Of a stretch of 64,000 nucleotides of DNA, positions 11,515 to 22,966 are shown piece by piece (the first letter of the stretch is position 1; each line of letters starts with the position of its first letter). A program made the translations under genes and the position numbers. This DNA comes from Alphaproteobacteria bacterium (lineage in GTDB: Bacteria > Pseudomonadota > Alphaproteobacteria > JAVJVX01). The notes below the pieces were generated by a model, which saw only the letters and a list, made by a program, of their open reading frames with translations, had not been told where the DNA came from and made no database searches. Location: NCBI GenBank assembly GCA_040220875.1, contig JAVJVX010000005.1:248001-312000 (forward strand). Direction: 5' to 3'.

Positions 11515-13224
11515 CTAGTACAGAAAATACCGCTGCGCCATCGGCAGAACTTCAGCCGGCGGGCAGGTCAGCAGAACACCATCGGCGCGCACCTCGTAGG
11601 TTTCGGGATCCACCTCGATCACCGGCAGGGCGTCGTTGAGCTTCATATCGGCCTTGGACAACCGGCGCAGGTCGCGAACCGGGACCACGGTCTTGGCCAG
11701 GCCCAGCCGGCTGCCAATCCCATCGGCCGCGGCGGCGGCGGAAACGAAACTCACGCCCGTCGCCGTCCGCGCCCGGCCGAAACTGCCGAACATGGGACGG
11801 TAATGAACCGGCCCTGGTGTCGGGATGGAAGCATTGGGGTCACCCATGGGCGCGGCCGCGATCATGCCGCCGATCAGGATCAGGTCCGGTTTGACCCCGA
11901 AGAAGACGGGATCCCAAAGCACGAGATCGGCCCGCTTTCCTACCTCGACCGATCCCACCTCGTGGGCGATACCTTGGGCAATGGCCGGATTGATGGTGTA
12001 TTTGGCGATATAGCGTCGGGCGCGAAAATTATCGTTTCCGGCCGAGTCCTCCGGCAGCGGGCCGCGCTGACGCTTCATCTTGTCCGCCGTTTGCCAGGTG
12101 CGGATAAGAACTTCACCGACCCGCCCCATCGCCTGGGAATCGGATGCGATGATGGAAAACGCCCCGAGATCGTGGAGGATGTCTTCGGCCGCGATGGTTT
12201 CCTTACGGATGCGGCTTTCGGCGAAGGCGATATCTTCCGGTATTGACGGATCGAGATGGTGACACACCATCAGCATGTCGAGATGCTCCTCGATGGTATT
12301 CACCGTATAGGGCCGGGTCGGGTTGGTCGAGCTGGGCAGCACATTGGGCTGGCCGCACACGCGGATGATATCGGGTGCATGGCCGCCGCCGGCGCCCTCG
12401 GTGTGAAAAGTGTGGATGGTCCGACCCTTGAATGCGTCGATCGTCACCTCGACGAATCCGGACTCGTTCAGCGTATCGGTGTGAATCATCACCTGGATGT
12501 CGTGGTCGTCGGCGACGGACAGGCAGTTGTCAATTGCCGCCGGTGTGGTCCCCCAGTCCTCATGAAGTTTGAGCGCCAGGGCCCCGGCGCGCACCTGCTC
12601 TTCAAGCGGCCCGGGAAGGCTCGCATTGCCCTTGCCGGCGAAGCCCAGATTCATCGGAAAACTGTCGGCCGCCTGCAACATACGCCCGATATGCCAGGGT
12701 CCCGGCGTGCAAGTGGTCGCGTTGGTCCCCGTGGCCGGGCCGGTGCCGCCACCCAGCATGGTGGTCACGCCCGACATCAGCGCTTCCTCGATCTGCTGCG
12801 GCGCGATGAAATGGATGTGACAGTCGATTCCACCGGCCGTGAGAATCTTTCCCTCCCCCGCGATGGCCTCCGTGCCGGGGCCGATAACGATATCGACATT
12901 GTCCTGGATATCGGGATTGCCCGCCTTGCCGAGCGCGACGATCCGCCCGTCGCGCAACCCCACATCCGCCTTGAAAACGCCGGACCAGTCCAGGATCACC
13001 GCATTGGTGATGACGGTATCCACGGCACCATCGGCCCGGGATGCCTGCGACTGACCCATTCCGTCGCGAATGACCTTCCCGCCGCCAAATTTGACTTCCT
13101 CGCCGGGATGGGCTGCGTCGTGCTCGATCTCGATGAAGAGATCCGTATCGGCGAGGCGCACACGGTCGCCCGTGCCAGGGCCATACATGGCCGCATAATC
13201 GCGCCGTGACAGTCGGTACGCCAT
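11515..13224 (-). CDS. ureC: Urease subunit alpha UreC
   Basis: The 569-residue catalytic subunit, which hydrolyses urea to ammonia and carbamate. The metal ligands are all visible: [10 protein letters not shown] gives the His-x-His pair, [11 protein letters not shown] the lysine to be carbamylated, and [10 protein letters not shown] plus [15 protein letters not shown] further His ligands. The active-site flap is [20 protein letters not shown] and the Asp ligand lies in [12 protein letters not shown]. The true start is the ATG at 13224, which overlaps the ureB TGA by one base (TGATG). Length and motifs are normal, so the enzyme should be active. Confidence 0.98.
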
Positions 13225-13541
13225 CAAAGGTCCCCCGAAATATCGCCCGAAATATCGCCATGAAAGCCGAACACACGCCGGGCACCCGCAAACGGGACGA
13301 GATTAACCTCGCGCGTCTGGCCGGGCTCGAAGCGTACGGCCGTACCGGCCGGAATATCGAGCCGCTGGCCGCGCGCCGCCGCACGATCGAAGGCAAGGGC
13401 GGGATTAGTTTCAGCAAAATGATAGTGCGAGCCCACCTGCACGGGCCTGTCCCCGGTATTGGCAACGCGAAGCGTGGTCACGGCCCGGCCCGGATTGAGC
13501 ACCACCTCGCCTTCTGCCGGCAGGATTTCGCCCGGGATCAT
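13224..13541 (-). CDS. ureB: Urease subunit beta UreB
   Basis: A 105-residue small structural subunit with the canonical core [20 protein letters not shown] and [16 protein letters not shown]. It begins [13 protein letters not shown], as in nearly all UreB proteins. The start codon overlaps the stop of the small membrane-peptide gene upstream (ATGA). The C-terminal tail [11 protein letters not shown] contains a 12-base tandem duplication, which looks recent and harmless. Confidence 0.97.
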
Positions 13542-13699
13542 CGACCGCGCCCGCGCCTGATGAAGACGGCAGCCCCGACCGCCAGGACAAGCGCGATGAA
13601 GATCCCTTCAATACCGTGCGGGTGGGCATGCGATATGGCTTCCTGATGCGCCACGGCGGCGGTTGGCAGAACAGTCAGCAAAGCGCAAAGCAATCTCAT
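13538..13699 (-). CDS. 53-residue His-rich membrane peptide between ureA and ureB
   Basis: The product reads [17 protein letters not shown] (signal-like), [15 protein letters not shown] (short His-rich segment with four His), [15 protein letters not shown] (membrane helix) and RRGRGR (basic cytoplasmic end). GAGG lies 7 bases before the ATG at 13699. An alternative start at 13714 overlaps the ureA stop as ATGA. The stop overlaps the ureB start as ATGA, so the gene is locked between ureA and ureB by translational coupling. A membrane-anchored His-rich peptide inside a nickel-enzyme operon suggests a nickel-related or envelope role; that is inference. I recognise no family, though rhizobial urease operons also hold small unassigned genes. 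Confidence 0.7.
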
Positions 13700-13710
13700 C
13701 GGGCACCTCA

Positions 13711-14013
13711 TCATCTTACGGGTGTATGAACGGTGACCAGCTTGACCCCGTCGGGAAAGGTCGCTTCAACCTGAACGTCGCGGATCATCTCTGCGACGCC
13801 TTCCATGACCTGATCACGAGTCACCACATGCGCGCCCTCGTCCATGAGTTCGGCGACGGAGCGGCCGTCGCGCGCGCCCTCGATCACGAAGTCCGAGATC
13901 AGCGCAACCGTTTCCGGGTGGTTCAGCCTGACTCCGCGCTCCAGTCGCCTTCGGGCGACCAGGGCGGCCATCGAGATCAGCAGCTTGTCTTTTTCCCGAG
14001 GGGTCAGGCGCAT
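13711..14013 (-). CDS. ureA: Urease subunit gamma UreA
   Basis: A 100-residue structural subunit starting [20 protein letters not shown], with the conserved core [20 protein letters not shown] and [14 protein letters not shown]. It forms the trimer-of-heterotrimers with UreB and UreC. It follows ureD by 12 bases. Length and sequence are entirely typical. Confidence 0.97.
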
Positions 14014-14025
14014 GGGCCCTCCAAG

Positions 14026-14847
14026 TCAGAGACTCCAGACACGCGGCAGGGGCCGGCCGGTGATGACCGGCAGCAGACGGCTCAAGTCGCCGCGCAGCGT
14101 TTCCGCATCCGGCGCGAGAAGCCGCAGGACCAGCGTGCCCTCCACAACACTCGCCCCTCCCCTGCCCGCCGCCGTCGTCAGCATTTCACGCACCTCGTCC
14201 AAGTCCGCCTGCCTGATCGCCCCATGGGCCACGACGGTGGCATAGGCCCGGTTGTCGCCGAGGAGGGCGTGATCGGCCAGCCGGTCCCAGTCCTTGAGGC
14301 GCGTGGCGTCGGCAAACACCAGTCTCCCGCTGCAATAAACACGCCAGTCATCGCGCAACTCGCCCCGCGTTACACGCTCGCCCATCCGGTCCCGGCCCAG
14401 CATGACAGCCTCAAGCCCGACGAAGTGCGCATCGGGCGCCAGATCGACCCGCAAATTACGATGCAGCACCGCCCCATCAAACACGATCGTCTCCTGCGGC
14501 AGCCAGTGAAGGGTAGCGCCGGCCGCGACATCAAGCCGGACCGCCACCCTCGTGGCCCCCGACCCGGCCCGGTAGATCCGCTCCGCCGCCTGGCTCGAGA
14601 GGGATAGCGCGGCGCCCGGCCCGGCTTCGGCCGAATGCGCGAGCCGATCGCCGCCGGTGAGGCCGCCAGCCGTGTTGATCTGAACCGCTTCCAGAAACGC
14701 GTCGCGCGCCGAAGGCAGGCGCAGCTTGCAGGCTCCCGCCTGATGCAGCCGGGCCAAGACCGTCCTGCCCGTTGGTCCGTCGGCCACGGCCCTGAGATGG
14801 CTTTTCCCCACCGTCCGCTCGAACACTGTCGGGTCTTGTACGGCCAT
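14026..14847 (-). CDS. ureD: Urease accessory protein UreD (UreH)
   Basis: A 273-residue accessory protein, first gene of the urease operon. Typical segments are AVQINTAGGLTGGDRL, YRAGSGATRVAVRLDVAAGA, LHWLPQETIVFDGA and GRDRMGER. UreD binds apo-urease and forms the tunnel through which nickel passes from UreF/UreG. The start ATG at 14847 has GGAA about 6 bases upstream. The operon promoter should lie in 14850-15020; I see no clear NtrC/sigma-54 site (GG-N10-GC) there, so nitrogen control is not evident. Confidence 0.95.
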   Translation of the reverse strand: MAVQDPTVFERTVGKSHLRAVADGPTGRTVLARLHQAGACKLRLPSARDAFLEAVQINTAGGLTGGDRLAHSAEAGPGAALSLSSQAAERIYRAGSGATRVAVRLDVAAGATLHWLPQETIVFDGAVLHRNLRVDLAPDAHFVGLEAVMLGRDRMGERVTRGELRDDWRVYCSGRLVFADATRLKDWDRLADHALLGDNRAYATVVAHGAIRQADLDEVREMLTTAAGRGGASVVEGTLVLRLLAPDAETLRGDLSRLLPVITGRPLPRVWSL

Positions 14848-15797: not shown

Positions 15798-16517
15798 TCA
15801 GGAAATGCCCTGACGCTGATTGCGCAGGGCTTCGCCGAGTGGCGTCTGCAGGTCGATGCGGATTTCGGAAACCACGTTGAGGTCCCTGTCCTCCCAGATA
15901 TTTTCCCCGGGCCGTGCTGCGCGCCAGTCGGCGGCAATGCGGTCGCGCTCCTCGAGAAGAGAATGGATCTGCGGCCGGAAAGCCCGAAGCAATGCCGAAA
16001 TCCAGCGATTGACCGGCCAGGAAGGCCGCGCATGGGCGATCTCGAAGCGATGCAGCAGGCGCTTCACCTTATCCGCCCCGTACCAGCGACCGCCCGTCAC
16101 CCAGAGGTTGCTGGTGAAAAGCCGGAAGGGATAGCCGAACTCGTCCATGGAGATCCCGACAAGGTGACACAGATCCTCGTCCGCCCCCTCGGCGTGGGCC
16201 ACCGGCTTGAACCCTTCGATCGTGCCCGAGTCGCGCACGAAGGTGTGAAAGTGTCCGTGCTCGCCCTCGACCCGATCCTCCACCGGATGCGCGTGGTAGT
16301 AATACTGGGCGTGCGTCTGCTCGTCATAGACGTCGTTTTCCGGGTAGTGATCCCATTCGTAAAAGGCGTCATTGCCCTTGAGCAACTCGCCCACGATGTT
16401 GTCCCCGGTTCTGGCCAGAATGGCGTGCCAAAAAAGGCTTTCGCGCAGCCAGGCGGCGGGCGGCGCGGACTCGTCGGGGGAGGGCTGGATGAGAAGATTG
16501 TCGGCCCAGTTCATCAT
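15798..16517 (-). CDS. Uncharacterised His/Tyr-rich protein, third gene of the sigF-nrsF operon (DUF6969-like?)
   Basis: A 239-residue soluble protein without signal peptide. Its central motif HYPENDVYDEQTHAQYYYHAH is followed by EGEHGHFHTFVR and AHAEGADEDLCHLVGIS. These clusters of His, Asp and Glu look like metal ligands or an active site. The start ATG at 16517 overlaps the nrsF stop (ATGATGA), so it is coupled to the anti-sigma gene. I believe it belongs to a domain-of-unknown-function family found in alphaproteobacteria (possibly DUF6969) but cannot confirm the number. Its place in a sigma/anti-sigma operon suggests a role in the same stress response as the divergent Cys-repeat protein. 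Confidence 0.7.
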   Translation of the reverse strand: MMNWADNLLIQPSPDESAPPAAWLRESLFWHAILARTGDNIVGELLKGNDAFYEWDHYPENDVYDEQTHAQYYYHAHPVEDRVEGEHGHFHTFVRDSGTIEGFKPVAHAEGADEDLCHLVGISMDEFGYPFRLFTSNLWVTGGRWYGADKVKRLLHRFEIAHARPSWPVNRWISALLRAFRPQIHSLLEERDRIAADWRAARPGENIWEDRDLNVVSEIRIDLQTPLGEALRNQRQGIS

Positions 16518-17173
16518 CGCCGGTGCAGAGATGCCAGAGCCATGCTGCCTGCAGCAAACAACGCCACGGTCCCGAACTGCCAGACGAGCACCATGATGCC
16601 CGTGTCGTGCTCGTGAAAGAGCCTGAGACCGGCCGCGCCCAGCGCCGCCACAGCCAGGATGCCGAGTCCGGCCGTCACCGGCGGGTCGAACACATGCCCC
16701 CGGTGAAGCAACCAGCCCATCAGGACCCCCGGGGCAAGGCCTACCAGCGCGATGCCCGGAAAACACATGAAGTCGATATGGAGTGCCAGGCCGGCCGGCC
16801 CGAGCGAAACCCAGTCCTGCCAGCATCCCCGGCCCAGCAGGGCCAACCACAGGGCGAGCGGCACAAGCGGCATGAAAAGTTCGTAGCGCGGGCGGCCGGG
16901 CACGACCGAGCAGAAGGCCGCCGTGGCGGCGAAGATCGCCGTCATCAGGGCGGCCGCGACCTCGAACAGAAATCGGCTATCCTGCAATTGCGCGCCAAGG
17001 TCGGGACGCAGACCGAACAGCCAGACCACGATCGCCACAGCCGGCAGGGAAAGCGCGAGCCATGCGAGGAGCCGGGCATGCGGGGGCGACAGCCGACGCA
17101 CGGGGCGGGCATCGTCGACCAGCGTCGTGATCAGGCTCTCCGTGCTCGTATATTCCGTGCTCTTGCTTCTCAT
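16514..17173 (-). CDS. nrsF: NrsF (DUF1109) family anti-sigma factor, six-helix membrane protein
   Basis: A 219-residue inner-membrane protein with a short cytoplasmic N-terminus and about six hydrophobic helices, for example LLAWLALSLPAVAIVVWLFG. NrsF proteins hold SigF inactive at the membrane, and conserved cysteines are needed for release. Cysteines are seen here in AAFCSVVPG, LGRGCWQDW and DFMCFPGIAL. The start overlaps the sigma-factor stop (ATGA). Gene order and fold match the Caulobacter sigF-nrsF pair, which responds to metal and oxidative stress. Confidence 0.88.
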   Translation of the reverse strand: MRSKSTEYTSTESLITTLVDDARPVRRLSPPHARLLAWLALSLPAVAIVVWLFGLRPDLGAQLQDSRFLFEVAAALMTAIFAATAAFCSVVPGRPRYELFMPLVPLALWLALLGRGCWQDWVSLGPAGLALHIDFMCFPGIALVGLAPGVLMGWLLHRGHVFDPPVTAGLGILAVAALGAAGLRLFHEHDTGIMVLVWQFGTVALFAAGSMALASLHRR

Positions 17174-17754
17174 TGCTCCCGCTCCGAGACGTCGCCGGCC
17201 GAAAGCCGCAGACGCAGAGTCTTGATCCCTCGGTGAACCGCCACCTTGAGCGCCGAGATGCTCACCCCGCTGGCACGCGACGCCTCGGCAAAGGTCATTT
17301 CCCGTATCTTGACCAGCTCGATCGCCTGGCGCTGCCGACGGGGCAAGGTGGCAATTACCTGGCGCAGTTTCCCGGGATCGCCGTAGGGCGAATCCTCTTC
17401 CCTCGCCTCCCTATTCGCCTGGGAGATGGAAAAGGTTTCAGTTTCGGGCACCTCGGCCACGGGATCGGTCGGATCGCGGCGATGGCGGCGCCCTGCATCG
17501 AGCAGACGATGGCGGGCAATGGCGGCGAGCCAGGGTTCGAAAGGCCGCGCCGGGTCATAGGTACGACGCGCGCGATGAAGGGAGATCAGGATCTCCTGAA
17601 CAAGGTCTTCCTGTCCGTCAGGCCGGGACCAGCGCCGGCCCACATAGCGCCGCAGCCAGGGCAGCACCCCCTCCAGCAGTTGCCCGTAGGCCGCGCGGTC
17701 GCCGTTCTGGGCACGGCGCATAAGGTCGCGCCATTCATCGTTAAATTCCGCCAT
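17170..17754 (-). CDS. sigF: ECF sigma factor, SigF (ECF16-like)
   Basis: About 194 residues. Region 2 is visible in DGQEDLVQEILISLHRARRTY and FEPWLAAIARHRLLDAGR. Region 4 is the HTH TFAEASRASGVSISALKVAV followed by HRGIKTLR. The acid-rich linker (PETETFSISQANREAREEDS) is longer than average. Two in-frame starts, at 17754 and 17763, are possible. Next to an nrsF gene it is most probably a SigF orthologue. I found no GTAACC-N16-CGAA site reading toward this operon, so it may not be autoregulated through that motif. Confidence 0.9.
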   Translation of the reverse strand: MAEFNDEWRDLMRRAQNGDRAAYGQLLEGVLPWLRRYVGRRWSRPDGQEDLVQEILISLHRARRTYDPARPFEPWLAAIARHRLLDAGRRHRRDPTDPVAEVPETETFSISQANREAREEDSPYGDPGKLRQVIATLPRRQRQAIELVKIREMTFAEASRASGVSISALKVAVHRGIKTLRLRLSAGDVSEREQ

Positions 17755-17851
17755 GACCCCCATTCCGACCGCGCCTGTCCGGCGCGGGCGCGACCCTCTT
17801 TGAACCGGCCGGACACCCCGTCATCGTGCCAGCCGGCGGCCAGCCGCCAAT

Positions 17852-17877
17852 GTAACCTTTCCCGGCGCGGTGACGAA
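17852..17877 (+). promoter_or_regulatory. Candidate SigF promoter upstream of the NPC-repeat/P460 gene
   Basis: GTAACC (17852-17857), 16 bases, then CGAA (17874-17877). From memory this matches the motif reported for Caulobacter SigF (GTAACC-N16-CGAA). It lies 141 bases before the start codon at 18019, on the correct strand, and in the divergent region next to the sigF gene itself. Confidence 0.7.
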
Positions 17878-18018: not shown

Positions 18019-19089
18019 ATGCGCAAACTCAGTAGGTCCGTTTCAGTCGGCCTGTTCACAGCTGCCGCGACGCTTGGCGGGGCCGGGCTGGTGGCGGCCA
18101 ATCCCTGTGCTGTCCGCGGTAGCGGCAAGCGGGGCTGCCAGGCAGCGAGCTGCCGGGCCAATCCGTGCAAGGCGGGCAATCCTTGCGGGGCCCGCGCCGC
18201 TTGCGGCGCCAAGAATCCCTGCGGCGCCAAAAATCCCTGCGGCGCCAAGAACCCCTGCGGGGCCAAGAATCCCTGTGGCGCCAAGAATCCCTGCGGGGCA
18301 GGAAATCCGTGCAACCCCTGCAACCCCTGCAACCCGTGCGCGGGGGCCATGGCGCCGGCCAGCGAGAAATGCGTTGTGCCCCGTCTGGCCAAGGCCAATC
18401 CTTGTGCAGCCAAAAACCCCTGCGCCGCGAAGCGCGGGTGCGGCCCCTGCGGTGCGAAGAAAGGTTGCGCCGCCAAGAACCCCTGCGCTGCCAAGAATCC
18501 CTGCGCCGCCAAGAATCCCTGCGCTGCCAAGAACCCCTGCGGCGCTGGCAATCCTTGCAATCCGTGCAATCCCTGCGCGGGCGCCGGCGGGGCGGAAATC
18601 TCCTCGGCCGAAGCGGTGGCGGCCTATGATTGCGTCAAGCCGGAGTTGAAAGCGGGCTACGCCAAATCCGGGCTTGCGGTCGCCCGGGACTATCAGGGCT
18701 GGGCCAAGTACAATACGGTGCCCTACGAATCCGGGACTCACGGCTCGCGTTACGTCAACAACTACGCAAACGCGACCGCCAAGAACTACGGGAAATTCGA
18801 AGAGTCGGGCACGATGCCCGAAGGCTCGTTCCTGGCCAAGGACAGCATCCTGGCCGATGAAGCGGGCAAGGTGCGGCTCGGCCCGCTTTTCCTGATGGAA
18901 AAGATGGAGGCCGGGTTCAATGGCGATACCTTCGACTGGCGCTACACGATGGTCATGCCCGATGGCGCCATCGTTGGGACGACCAACGGGGACGGCCACA
19001 ACAACGTCCAGTTCTGCGTGGATTGTCACAATCTTCAGGAACAACAGGACGCCATGTGGTTCCTGCCGGAAGAATTCCGCCAGAACTGA
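18019..19089 (+). CDS. Exported Asn-Pro-Cys repeat protein with C-terminal cytochrome P460-like haem domain
   Basis: A 356-residue periplasmic protein. Signal peptide: residues 1-26, ending GGAGLVA. Residues 27-190 are low-complexity and hold 21 NPC motifs, mostly as GAKNPC or AAKNPC six-residue units plus NPC triplets, in two blocks. I count 28 Cys in this part. Residues 195-356 resemble cytochrome P460/c'-beta proteins: WAKYNTVPYESGTHGSRYVN, TMPEGSFLAKDS, and the C-terminal haem c motif FCVDCH. GGGAG precedes the ATG and a SigF-type site lies 141 bases upstream. Many Cys at fixed spacing suggests metal (copper, zinc) binding or thiol buffering; P460 domains bind NO or oxidise hydroxylamine. 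Both uses are inferred here. The fusion is the most unusual protein in the window. Confidence 0.85.
   Translation: MRKLSRSVSVGLFTAAATLGGAGLVAANPCAVRGSGKRGCQAASCRANPCKAGNPCGARAACGAKNPCGAKNPCGAKNPCGAKNPCGAKNPCGAGNPCNPCNPCNPCAGAMAPASEKCVVPRLAKANPCAAKNPCAAKRGCGPCGAKKGCAAKNPCAAKNPCAAKNPCAAKNPCGAGNPCNPCNPCAGAGGAEISSAEAVAAYDCVKPELKAGYAKSGLAVARDYQGWAKYNTVPYESGTHGSRYVNNYANATAKNYGKFEESGTMPEGSFLAKDSILADEAGKVRLGPLFLMEKMEAGFNGDTFDWRYTMVMPDGAIVGTTNGDGHNNVQFCVDCHNLQEQQDAMWFLPEEFRQN
18094..18590 (+). repeat. Degenerate 18-base and 9-base tandem repeats encoding (K/G)NPC units
   Basis: Two arrays inside the gene at 18019: about 18205-18342 (five GCCAAGAATCCCTGCGGC-type units, then four NPC units) and about 18400-18580 (KNPC units, then three NPC units). 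They differ mostly at silent positions (AAT/AAC, CCC, TGC/TGT), so the protein pattern is conserved more strictly than the DNA. Unit length is a multiple of three, so gain or loss keeps the frame. Confidence 0.85.
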
Positions 19090-19249: not shown

Positions 19250-19795
19250 ATGACCTATTTTCCGTCCATGCCCGATGCTTCACTCATCCATTTCATGCGC
19301 CGCTATCCGCAATATGCCGAGCCGCTTCATCATTTCGTCGAAGCGGCGCTGCGCGCGCCGAACGGCGAATTGTCACCGGCCGAACGCGAGATGATTTTCG
19401 CTTATGTGTCAGGCCTGAACGGCTGCCAGTTCTGCCATGCAGCGCATACCGGCGTGGCGGAGGAAATGGGGTATCCCAAGGGTGAGATCAGCAATCTCCT
19501 CGAAGATTCCGGCCTCGCCGGTGCGTCGGCAAAAATGCGCCCGATCCTCGAATATGCGGCCAAGCTGACCGAGGATCCGACGTCTGTGGGAAAAGGCGAT
19601 ATTCAGGCGGTTCTCGACGCCGGATGGAGCGAGGATACCATGATGAACGTTGTCATGATCTGCGGTGCGGCCAATCTCTTCAATCGCTGGATCGAGGGGT
19701 GCGGCGTGAAGGCAAACCCGCAACATGTGAACGCCGGCATCAAGGCGCTCGCGCAGGGTGGCTATCTGGATATCATGGAAGCCGCCAAGGCCTGA
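19250..19795 (+). CDS. AhpD-like (carboxymuconolactone decarboxylase superfamily) peroxidase-related protein
   Basis: A 181-residue all-helical protein. The segment EREMIFAYVSGLNGCQFCHAAH has the Glu, Cys-x-x-Cys and His arrangement of AhpD, in which the Cys pair cycles between thiol and disulfide to reduce peroxides. It is cytoplasmic, with no signal peptide. AGAGGATC lies 10 bases before the ATG. It follows the NPC-repeat/P460 gene by 160 bases and precedes a flavodoxin-like gene by 48, so it is likely in the SigF-linked operon. That position supports a role in oxidative or electrophile defence. Confidence 0.82.
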   Translation: MTYFPSMPDASLIHFMRRYPQYAEPLHHFVEAALRAPNGELSPAEREMIFAYVSGLNGCQFCHAAHTGVAEEMGYPKGEISNLLEDSGLAGASAKMRPILEYAAKLTEDPTSVGKGDIQAVLDAGWSEDTMMNVVMICGAANLFNRWIEGCGVKANPQHVNAGIKALAQGGYLDIMEAAKA

Positions 19796-19843
19796 CGACG
19801 GAGCCGAACCAGATACCCAGGATATCCACCCGCGGAGGTCCGA

Positions 19844-20590
19844 ATGACGTTGAACGAAAAACAGGCTGCATTATGCGAGGGGCACGGGTTTGACTTCTCG
19901 GGTCTTTCGGCGCTTTTCCTCAACTGCACCCTCAAGCCCAGCGGCACGCTGTCCCACACGGAAACACTCATGTCGGTTTCGGCCGAGATCATGACACGCA
20001 ACGGCGTCGCGGTCGAAATGTTGCGGCCCGTGGATTTCGATCTGGCGCCCGGTGTTTACCCCGATATGCGCGAGCACGGATTTGCCACCGATGACTGGCC
20101 CGACCTCAGCCGCAAGGTTCTCGCGGCCGATATTCTGGTCGTCGGCACGCCGATCTGGCTGGGCGAGGAAAGCTCGGTCTGCCGTCGGCTGATCGAGCGG
20201 CTTTACAGCGAATCGGGCCGGCTGAACGAGGCCGGGCAATACATCTATTACGGGCGGGTGGCCGGCGCGGTGGTCACTGGCAATGAAGACGGCGTCAAGC
20301 ATTGCGCGATGACCCTGTTCTACGCCCTGCAGCATCTCGGATATTCCATTCCTCCCCAGGCGGATGCCGGCTGGATCGGCGAGGCGGGGCCGGGCCCCTC
20401 CTATGGCGATGCGGGGTCGGGCGGGCCCGAGAACGACTTCACCCAGCGCAACATTACCTTCATGAGCTGGAATCTGATGCACATGGCCAGCCTGCTGCGC
20501 CGGGCGGGCGGCATCCCCGCCCATGGCAACCAGCGAGCCGAATGGGACGCAGGCTGCCGGTTCGACCACCCCAACCCGGATTACCGCTGA
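19844..20590 (+). CDS. NADPH-dependent FMN reductase / flavodoxin-fold protein
   Basis: A 248-residue flavodoxin-like protein. ALFLNCTLKPSGTLSHTETLM is the phosphate-binding loop for FMN, and ADILVVGTPIWLGEESSVCR the conserved TPIW segment next to the flavin. VAGAVVTGNEDGVKHCAMTL is the third binding stretch. It would reduce flavins or quinones with NAD(P)H. Third gene of the proposed SigF operon, 48 bases after the AhpD-like gene and convergent with the dehalogenase-like gene. It may supply electrons to the AhpD-like protein, but there is no direct evidence. Confidence 0.8.
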   Translation: MTLNEKQAALCEGHGFDFSGLSALFLNCTLKPSGTLSHTETLMSVSAEIMTRNGVAVEMLRPVDFDLAPGVYPDMREHGFATDDWPDLSRKVLAADILVVGTPIWLGEESSVCRRLIERLYSESGRLNEAGQYIYYGRVAGAVVTGNEDGVKHCAMTLFYALQHLGYSIPPQADAGWIGEAGPGPSYGDAGSGGPENDFTQRNITFMSWNLMHMASLLRRAGGIPAHGNQRAEWDAGCRFDHPNPDYR

Positions 20591-21788: not shown

Positions 21789-21814
21789 GTAACCTTTCAC
21801 CCTTCGGCGGCGAA
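21789..21814 (+). promoter_or_regulatory. Second candidate SigF promoter, upstream of DUF3179 gene
   Basis: GTAACC (21789-21794), 16 bases, CGAA (21811-21814), the same layout as the site at 17852. The first four spacer bases (TTTC) are also the same. It lies 142 bases before the DUF3179 start, nearly the same distance as at the first site. Confidence 0.7.
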
Positions 21815-21866
21815 TTACTCCGGTAGAGGGCCGCCTTCCGGGCAATGGTGGAGCGGCGGGAATACC

Positions 21867-21918
21867 GGAGCCGGGCACTGGAGCCGGGCACTGGAGCCGG
21901 GCACCGGAGCCGGGCACC
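21867..21918 (+). repeat. Four tandem 13-base repeats in the DUF3179 leader
   Basis: The unit GGAGCCGGGCAC(T/C) occurs four times head to tail; copies differ only at the last base. The unit is not a multiple of three and lies between the SigF-type promoter and the start codon. Confidence 0.9.
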
Positions 21919-21955
21919 GGGCCAAAAACGGATCGGGACGGAAACTGATCGGCGC

Positions 21956-22966
21956 ATGACACGACTTCTAAACCTTTTCCTGGTTGTGGCTTTTTTCGGC
22001 CTGACTCTCACGTCCCTGCCGCTCGCGGCGCGCGAAGGGCCGCGAGAATGGTTTTCGGAATGGCCGAACACGGATTTCTCCAGGCATGCGGTCGATTTTG
22101 ACGAAATCATCTCGGGCGGACCGCCGCGGGGCGGGATCCCGGCGATCATGGAGCCCCATTTCAAGCCGGCGGGCGAGCTTCTCGCATTGACCGAACAGGA
22201 GCCCGTCATCGGTCTCCAGATCGAGGGCGACTGGCGCGCCTACCCGCTGCGCATTCTCATGCGCCACGAGATCGTCAACGATATCGTCGCGGGCCGGCCC
22301 GTCGCAGTGACCTACTGCCCGCTCTGCAACTCCGCCGTGGTTTTCGACCGCCGGCTCGACGGACAGGTGCTGACCTTCAACACCACCGGCAAGCTTCGTC
22401 ATTCCGATATGGTCATGTTCGATCTCGAGACCGAAAGCTGGTGGCAGCAATTCACGGGCAAGGGAATCGTTGGCGAGCTTACCGACGCGACCCTGACCAA
22501 ACTGCCGGCCCGGCTCGAGTCCTTCGCCCTTTTCAAGGAGCGCGCAGCGGCGGCAGGCGCAACGGACCCCAAGGTCCTGGTGCCGACGCCCGGCCACGAC
22601 ATTTTCCGCTCCTACGGCCGCAACCCCTATGTCGGTTACGACAAGATGTCGCGTCCGCCGCTTTACGACGGGTCCCTGCCGGAGGGGATCGAACCCCTGG
22701 CACGGGTCGTCGTCATCGGTGATGAGGCCTGGCCGATGCAGCGTGTGCGCGAGCACGGGCCCATCCGGCATGGCGATCTGATCATCAGCTGGCGGGCGGG
22801 CCAGCGCTCCGTCCTCGATACACGCGACATCAGCCGCGGGCGTGAGGTCGGCAACATCATCGTGCAACGCGAAACCTCAAACGGGCTCGAGGATGTCGTC
22901 CACGACGTCAGCTTCGCCTTCGCGTTTCATGCCTTCAACCCGGAGGGGACGCTGCATCTGAAATGA
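21956..22966 (+). CDS. DUF3179 domain exported protein
   Basis: A 336-residue protein with an N-terminal signal (MTRLLNLFLVVAFFGLTLTSLPLAA) and a DUF3179 domain. Characteristic segments are ALTEQEPVIGLQIEGDWRAYPLRIL, VTYCPLCNSAVVFDR with a Cys-x-x-Cys pair, and ESWWQQFTGKGIVGEL. The function of the family is unknown; the Cys pair and Trp/His-rich core suggest metal or redox chemistry in the periplasm. I chose the ATG at 21956 because the signal peptide begins there; an upstream in-frame ATG would read through the 13-base repeats. A SigF-type promoter lies 142 bases upstream. Confidence 0.85.
   Translation: MTRLLNLFLVVAFFGLTLTSLPLAAREGPREWFSEWPNTDFSRHAVDFDEIISGGPPRGGIPAIMEPHFKPAGELLALTEQEPVIGLQIEGDWRAYPLRILMRHEIVNDIVAGRPVAVTYCPLCNSAVVFDRRLDGQVLTFNTTGKLRHSDMVMFDLETESWWQQFTGKGIVGELTDATLTKLPARLESFALFKERAAAAGATDPKVLVPTPGHDIFRSYGRNPYVGYDKMSRPPLYDGSLPEGIEPLARVVVIGDEAWPMQRVREHGPIRHGDLIISWRAGQRSVLDTRDISRGREVGNIIVQRETSNGLEDVVHDVSFAFAFHAFNPEGTLHLK

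Follow-up and report, generated by a model that had tools for sequence, protein, structure and literature searches.

What is the function of an exported protein in which a chain of Asn-Pro-Cys (NPC) units, extremely rich in cysteine, is joined to a c-type heme domain of the cytochrome P460 family? The question is raised by a gene at positions 18019-19089 (forward strand) of the window, the 64,000-nucleotide stretch of an alphaproteobacterial contig that was analyzed. The answer developed here is that the protein looks like part of an undescribed stress-induced thiol system, which probably serves to trap toxic metals or other compounds that react with thiols. A survey of the relevant features is compiled in Table 1.

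Table 1. Features of the array gene and its surroundings (window coordinates)
Feature	Position	Strand	Basis and remarks
DUF6969 gene	15798..16514	-	PF22308, 262.7 bits; third in the sigma-NrsF operon; recurrent partner
NrsF anti-sigma factor gene	16514..17173	-	PF06532, 80.3 bits; 4-base overlap with sigma gene
ECF sigma factor gene	17170..17763	-	Sigma70_r2 and Sigma70_r4_2
SigF-type promoter motif GTAACC-N16-CGAA before array gene	17852..17877	+	exact match to Caulobacter SigF motif
Leader, signal-peptide-like, residues 1-27	18019..18099	+	sequence; leaders sequence-conserved in family, this copy diverged
First Cys array, residues 28-107	18100..18339	+	sequence; predicted disordered (AlphaFold)
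CVVPRL motif, residues 118-123, N-terminal P460 strand	18370..18387	+	conserved in most array-P460 proteins; model
Second Cys array, residues 127-186	18397..18576	+	sequence; low pLDDT
Cytochrome P460 domain, residues 193-356	18595..19086	+	Pfam above cut-off; PDB fold matches 6hiu, 9hrk, 7ead, 7s5o, 2je2
K274 at heme-crosslinking Lys position	18838..18840	+	81/82 relatives
CVDCH heme c attachment motif (CXXCH; within FCVDCH), residues 333-337	19015..19029	+	sequence
Second SigF-type promoter motif, before DUF3179 gene	21789..21814	+	motif search; genome-wide search agrees
Exported DUF3179 protein, CPLC motif, putative SigF regulon member	21956..22966	+	PF11376, 252.3 bits

Cysteine Arrays

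The gene is a single intact reading frame with an ATG start, encoding 356 amino acids. The protein contains 21 NPC units and 31 cysteines, 28 of which reside in residues 27-192, mostly at distances of 6 or 3 residues from each other. The initial annotation, which had counted a 21-fold repeat and 28 cysteines in roughly 165 residues, is thereby confirmed (166 residues); shuffled versions of this segment held on average 0.5 and at most 4 NPC units. The units are written in seven codon spellings, hence fresh DNA expansion alone is excluded as their origin. The array holds 23 Lys and Arg residues against a single Asp or Glu. With pLDDT values of about 35-50 in an AlphaFold2 model built with 48 relatives, the arrays are predicted to be nearly structureless, in support of the basic, flexible, thiol-rich chain proposed earlier. 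The signal-peptide-like N-terminus passes directly into the array.

The cysteine repeat as such stands, its description as a single domain does not: by sequence and model, the region is composed of two arrays separated by the motif CVVPRL. This motif is modeled as a strand (114-119) and the start of a helix, in a block with pLDDT of about 91; it is assigned to the P460 domain, and the second array would consequently be a long insertion that separates the first main helix from a strand at the N-terminus. C118 of the motif and C205 either occur together or are jointly missing in the relatives inspected, which suggests a structural disulfide. C118, one of the 28 cysteines, is probably structural and not an array thiol, and the number of array thiols amounts to about 27-28. 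In five relatives (L020, L065, L076, L114, L116) an extra array is located within the P460 domain, in a hairpin right before GPLFxMEKM.

Heme Domain and Active Site

The C-terminal domain had been described as P460-like, and it passed the profile comparison: the family PF16694 (Cytochrome_P460) was matched with 29.5 bits (gathering cut-off 27), and no other Pfam family was found. Comparison of the AlphaFold2 model by Foldseek returned solved P460/c'-beta structures with probability 1.00 (6hiu, TMt 0.67) at sequence identities of 13-21%, and pLDDT values of the domain were mostly >90. The terminal FCVDCH noted before harbors the heme c motif, whose residues C333, C336 and H337 occur without exception across 82 relatives. 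H241 is an invariant histidine preceding the segment YVNNY.

In a profile alignment to solved chains, the column of K274 is occupied by Phe61 in TtCP-beta (Thermus) and by Met79 in NeCP-beta (Nitrosomonas); according to a 2025 review, Phe61 of TtCP-beta and a Met of NeCP-beta correspond to Lys70, the residue that forms the crosslink in NeP460 (PMC11928373). F291 aligns with Gly82 of TtCP-beta, where NeP460 has its catalytic carboxylate, Glu96, and NsP460, which also lacks the distal carboxylate, does not oxidize NH2OH (PMC11928373). Oxidation of NH2OH is not expected here because of the phenylalanine at this position. From an alignment at low identity, the heme is expected to be Lys-crosslinked, with a nonpolar pocket and without hydroxylamine oxidase activity. 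The earlier proposal that the heme may bind hydroxylamine is thus weakened: K274 is kept, but Phe replaces the catalytic carboxylate. If the function proposed below is right, P460 proteins incapable of hydroxylamine oxidation would have a wider role.

Sigma Factor Operon and Promoter Motifs

The genes for the ECF sigma factor, NrsF and DUF6969 overlap end to start (the ATG of DUF6969 overlaps the stop codon of NrsF) and form an operon divergent from the array gene. The sequence GTAACC-N16-CGAA, which is the Caulobacter SigF motif (PMC3511200), was found twice in the 64 kb, compared to 0.22 expected, and the rest of the genome holds just two more matches, both intragenic. In the three other loci that have the sigma gene nearby (L064, L066, L107), the array-P460 genes are likewise preceded by the exact motif. 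Genes and motif are both in place for control of the array gene by a SigF/NrsF system, as far as can be judged from sequence. In Caulobacter, SigF responds to chromate and cadmium, and two conserved cysteines are important for NrsF (PMC3511200); the SigF regulon includes DUF2282 genes, whose products count among the bufferins, a family of peptides that are exported and chelate copper (PMC3511200, PMC12452194). The exact motif was present in 3 of 75 array genes tested, and most array genes outside these four loci are devoid of it. A general occurrence of the motif among array genes is therefore not supported, and the other array loci appear to be regulated differently.

The longest open reading frame for the DUF3179 gene begins at 21845; a 13-base tandem repeat (4.4 copies, 21864-21920) is located downstream of the second SigF-type site and ahead of the likely start. 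The array gene is followed, in the same orientation, by genes for AhpD/CMD-like and FMN-reductase-like proteins (19250-20590), neither of which was encountered next to array genes at other loci. Urease genes (alpha, beta and gamma subunits, UreD-like) are located a few kb upstream (11515-14847).

A rival reading is a sacrificial redox or reactive-species scavenger, in which the array thiols would be oxidized by HOCl, peroxide or NO, the latter delivered or made at the heme, and re-reduced by DUF3179-like proteins. Selenocysteine forms of DUF3179 with a UxxC/T redox motif are known, MsrA and MerA-like reductases are encoded near some array genes, and resistance to hypochlorous acid in Brucella is reported to be governed by an ECF/anti-sigma system (PMC8315932). 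On the other hand, reactive oxygen does not induce the SigF genes of Caulobacter (PMC3511200), and a dedicated reductase common to all loci examined was not found, which leaves this proposal unlikely.

Distribution and Variants of the Arrays

A strict DNA pattern for NPCxxxNPCxxxNPC was searched in 385 alphaproteobacterial genomes. It matched 35 of them, one out of frame (G231), leaving 34 array genomes, and the reversed control pattern gave 0 matches in the same set. Phylum-wide, 13 of 398 genomes matched, partly outside Alphaproteobacteria. Some arrays are fused to P460, others form small peptides that are exported or lipoprotein-like, and the two kinds are frequently neighbors of each other; the stand-alone peptides comprise 60-130 residues, are exported, and carry no heme domain. 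Two P460 relatives (L010, L014) have arrays of CGAC units, with 0 and 1 NPC, respectively. By these sequences, the conserved trait is cysteine density together with CxxC, and NPC is dispensable. A modification at every NPC, as had been considered, is weakened, and NPC-specific modification is disfavored as a candidate by the same CGAC arrays.

On the tree of P460 domains the presence of an array requires 5 changes, compared to a shuffled mean of 22.4 (one row in this count, L052, is probably mislabeled). The array would therefore be an ancient trait that was lost in some lineages, Kiloniella among them. Array-less P460 relatives were found in cultured Kiloniella species (L035, L056-L059), and in L035 and L057-L059 the gene is situated directly 3' of a formate-dehydrogenase-like two-gene cluster. 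The genome under study encodes a second exported array protein (L138:6944-7738; G000:C5 near 552 kb) whose short array of 3 NPC and additional SPC units precedes a BLH_phosphatase-like domain; it adjoins two YeeE/YedE-like membrane proteins.

Signal peptides are normally not conserved in sequence. When 5,489 open reading frames of the loci were searched with a profile built from residues 1-40 of array-P460 proteins, the matches were almost exclusively array proteins, including the stand-alone peptides L117, L129, L100, L108 and L120, which had not been used for training. The diverged leader of the window protein was missed by this profile, and some small array peptides bear a different leader type. 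As the family leader is conserved, unlike usual signal peptides, a partner may recognize it.

A Second Heme Fold

Array proteins of six additional genomes have, in place of P460, a SoxA-TsdA_cyt-c domain (PF21342, above the Pfam cut-off) (L174/L188, L177/L181, L178/L182, L179/L183, L180/L184, L186). Beyond CXXCH, one invariant cysteine is common to the six domains, and it aligns to a SoxA cysteine in 1h31 (E 4.6e-8). The window protein has no such domain in the Pfam search. Similar arrays are thus, by domain assignment, joined to two unrelated c-type heme folds, which is taken as the strongest hint that heme chemistry and array thiols act together. P460 and SoxA/TsdA-type fusions would render the effect of a c-type heme on neighboring thiols testable in one small protein.

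These fusions speak for a heme-coupled sulfur carrier, the main rival of the reading favored below: the array thiols would take up sulfane sulfur or thiosulfonate generated by the c-type heme to which they are joined, as SoxA loads SoxY, and serve as a many-armed periplasmic sulfur store for the detoxification or oxidation of sulfide or thiosulfate. Thiosulfate is conjugated to thiols by hemes of the SoxA family (PMC4423706). Sulfur transporters of the YeeE/YedE type are encoded within 5 kb of 6 of the 48 P460-type and 7 of the 31 small array genes, and the pair next to the short-array BLH_phosphatase protein points in the same direction. The domain in the window protein, however, is P460 and not SoxA, sox genes were not seen beside the arrays, and the link to NrsF and SigF indicates metals. 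Furthermore, we know of no sulfur chemistry in P460 proteins. The sulfur carrier is accordingly possible, albeit doubtful.

Two other explanations were considered. The first is an ordinary hydroxylamine oxidase of the cytochrome P460 type, whose low-complexity linker would have no relevance. The fold and the crosslink lysine agree with it; the phenylalanine at the distal-carboxylate position does not, and the arrays are clustered on the tree, exist without P460 and are also found on another heme, so that it appears highly improbable. The second is a disulfide-crosslinked structural or surface polymer for which P460 is a passive anchor. Arrays of this basic, low-complexity kind are reminiscent of envelope proteins, and CdeC, with its 6-NPC repeat, forms disulfide-dependent lamellae (PMC7677010). 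Conserved residues for heme attachment and crosslink, the use of two heme folds, a stress promoter and small stand-alone forms argue against a polymer, which is regarded as very unlikely.

DUF6969 and Other Recurrent Neighbors

DUF6969 was present in 32 of the 34 array genomes compared to 57 of the 351 others (Fisher p 1e-20), and by family in 22/23 compared to 22/150 (p 1e-14), with shared ancestry not fully corrected in either comparison. Among 85 array genes, some at loci cut by contig ends, it was found within 5 kb of 26/48 P460-type, 4/6 SoxA-type and 19/31 small array genes, frequently as the adjacent gene, and it adjoins the CGAC array of L010 (G064:C182). The alignment shows invariant histidines at 56, 74, 76, 88, 90 and 117; D64 and others are also invariant. 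The structure model (pLDDT 88.5) had no PDB match with E < 0.3, nor was one obtained by profile, so that these comparisons do not place it with a known fold, and a search of the open literature retrieved no paper mentioning DUF6969. It is conceivable, if rather doubtful, that the arrays, joined on at least two occasions to unrelated c-type hemes, form a widespread system in which DUF6969, as a cytoplasmic metalloenzyme of new fold, would recognize the leader and the Cys units and modify the array ahead of export, the heme passing on electrons, sulfur or NO to it. Cys-rich proteins would then be modified by a route that does not need MNIO. For DUF6969, which lacks both a reported function and a known fold, this work would give a concrete hypothesis, a role as partner of Cys-array proteins.

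Further recurrent neighbors within 5 kb of the 85 genes are an exported FGE-sulfatase-like protein, YeeE/YedE, cupredoxin-like proteins (5/48 P460-type, 7/31 small array genes) and DUF3179. FGE-sulfatase-like exported proteins with a conserved GCG[VI]CRxAARH are encoded divergently to array genes in L032, L038, L047, L062, L108, L117 and others; their two cysteines are presumably spaced unlike the copper-binding cysteines of formylglycine-generating enzyme (FGE). An FGE-type conversion of C-V-V-P-R by such a neighbor is disfavored, since CVVPRL is accounted for as a P460 strand, the motif differs from the C-x-P-x-R of FGE, and only 19/48 P460-type genes have an FGE-like gene nearby. In L104, L112, L113 and L186, the neighbors of array genes include a pyridine nucleotide-disulfide reductase that resembles MerA, together with a membrane protein of the TVP38-like type; the two are fused in L186, and the surrounding gene order is conserved in L104, L112 and L113.

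Proposed Function

The reading we favor, while giving it somewhat less than an even chance in this specific form, is an exported polythiol buffer of the periplasm, induced by SigF/NrsF and coupled to a c-type heme, that would act against soft metals or stress by thiol-reactive compounds. From the sequence anatomy, the predicted fold, the conserved heme residues, the promoter motifs, the operon structure and the partner association, we infer the following course. Thiol-reactive stress, most likely by soft metals (Cu, Cd, chromate), would cause NrsF to let go of the ECF sigma factor, and the freed sigma factor would transcribe the array and DUF3179 genes from their GTAACC-N16-CGAA promoters. DUF6969, with its cytoplasmic, metal-enzyme-like character, may prepare or modify the array prior to export. 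The protein would be exported, heme c would be attached at CVDCH, and a Lys-crosslinked P460-type heme may be formed. The two disordered arrays could then offer about 27 thiols, largely as CxxC and C-x5-C pairs, for metal-thiolate clusters, while the fused heme might control whether the array, or what it carries, is oxidized or reduced, with DUF3179 (CPLC) as putative exported thiol-redox partner. The suggestion that the array-heme protein couples metal and redox sensing appears plausible.

The polythiol buffer is favored by the divergent sigma-NrsF-DUF6969 operon and the SigF motif before both the array and the DUF3179 gene. By analogy, the Caulobacter SigF regulon, with its chromate and cadmium response and its bufferin genes, points to metals. 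The arrays, predicted to be disordered, are dense in thiols and otherwise made of small residues, with CxxC kept even in the CGAC versions; heme-free array peptides exist, and cupredoxin-like genes are located nearby. There are also arguments against it. The MNIO enzyme of the bufferins is missing from this genome (no match to PF05114, which is matched in the control genome of Caulobacter), thus MNIO modification of the arrays is ruled out here. Cation binding is not favored by the strongly basic character of the array, the SigF motif is not general among array genes, and periplasmic thiols may simply be oxidized to disulfides. The sulfur-transporter neighbors and the SoxA-like second heme fold would fit sulfur chemistry better than a buffer. 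If this is correct, bacteria would have, under control of the SigF/NrsF stress system, a second family of buffers that are Cys-rich, exported and free of MNIO, here physically coupled to heme.

Comparison with Known Systems

Cytochromes P460/c'-beta (PF16694; NeP460, McP460, NsP460, TtCP-beta) share the fold, the CXXCH site and the lysine at the crosslink position with the window protein, which differs by two Cys arrays around the N-terminal strand, by Phe at the distal carboxylate, by H241 and by its low identity. The bufferins (DUF2282 and others) and MNIO offer a parallel in that an exported Cys-rich product is accompanied by a putative cytoplasmic metalloenzyme, and Buf1 clusters contain sigma-NrsF genes, as found here. 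Yet the window protein has a low-complexity array lacking a bufferin signature, a fused heme and DUF6969 as partner; as the genome contains no MNIO, it is not a bufferin. The Cys-ligated cytochromes SoxA/TsdA, with the carrier SoxYZ, offer a parallel through the SoxA/TsdA-type fusions of array relatives, with heme near a reactive cysteine, whereas the window protein has P460, and an array of many cysteines in cis would serve as carrier instead of the single cysteine of SoxY.

Metallothioneins are alike in thiol density, CxxC pairs and little structure in the metal-free state; in contrast, the window protein is predicted to be exported, fused to heme and strongly basic, and its metal binding is putative. 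CdeC from Clostridioides difficile is similar in the NPC repeat and the richness in cysteine, but it is a spore exosporium protein with only six NPC units and no heme, for which DUF6969 is not reported. A search of the open literature retrieved no report of the array-heme-DUF6969 set, nor of NPC arrays with heme. Judged by its sequence, the P460 domain is of a known kind, while the combination of array, heme and DUF6969 appears to be new.
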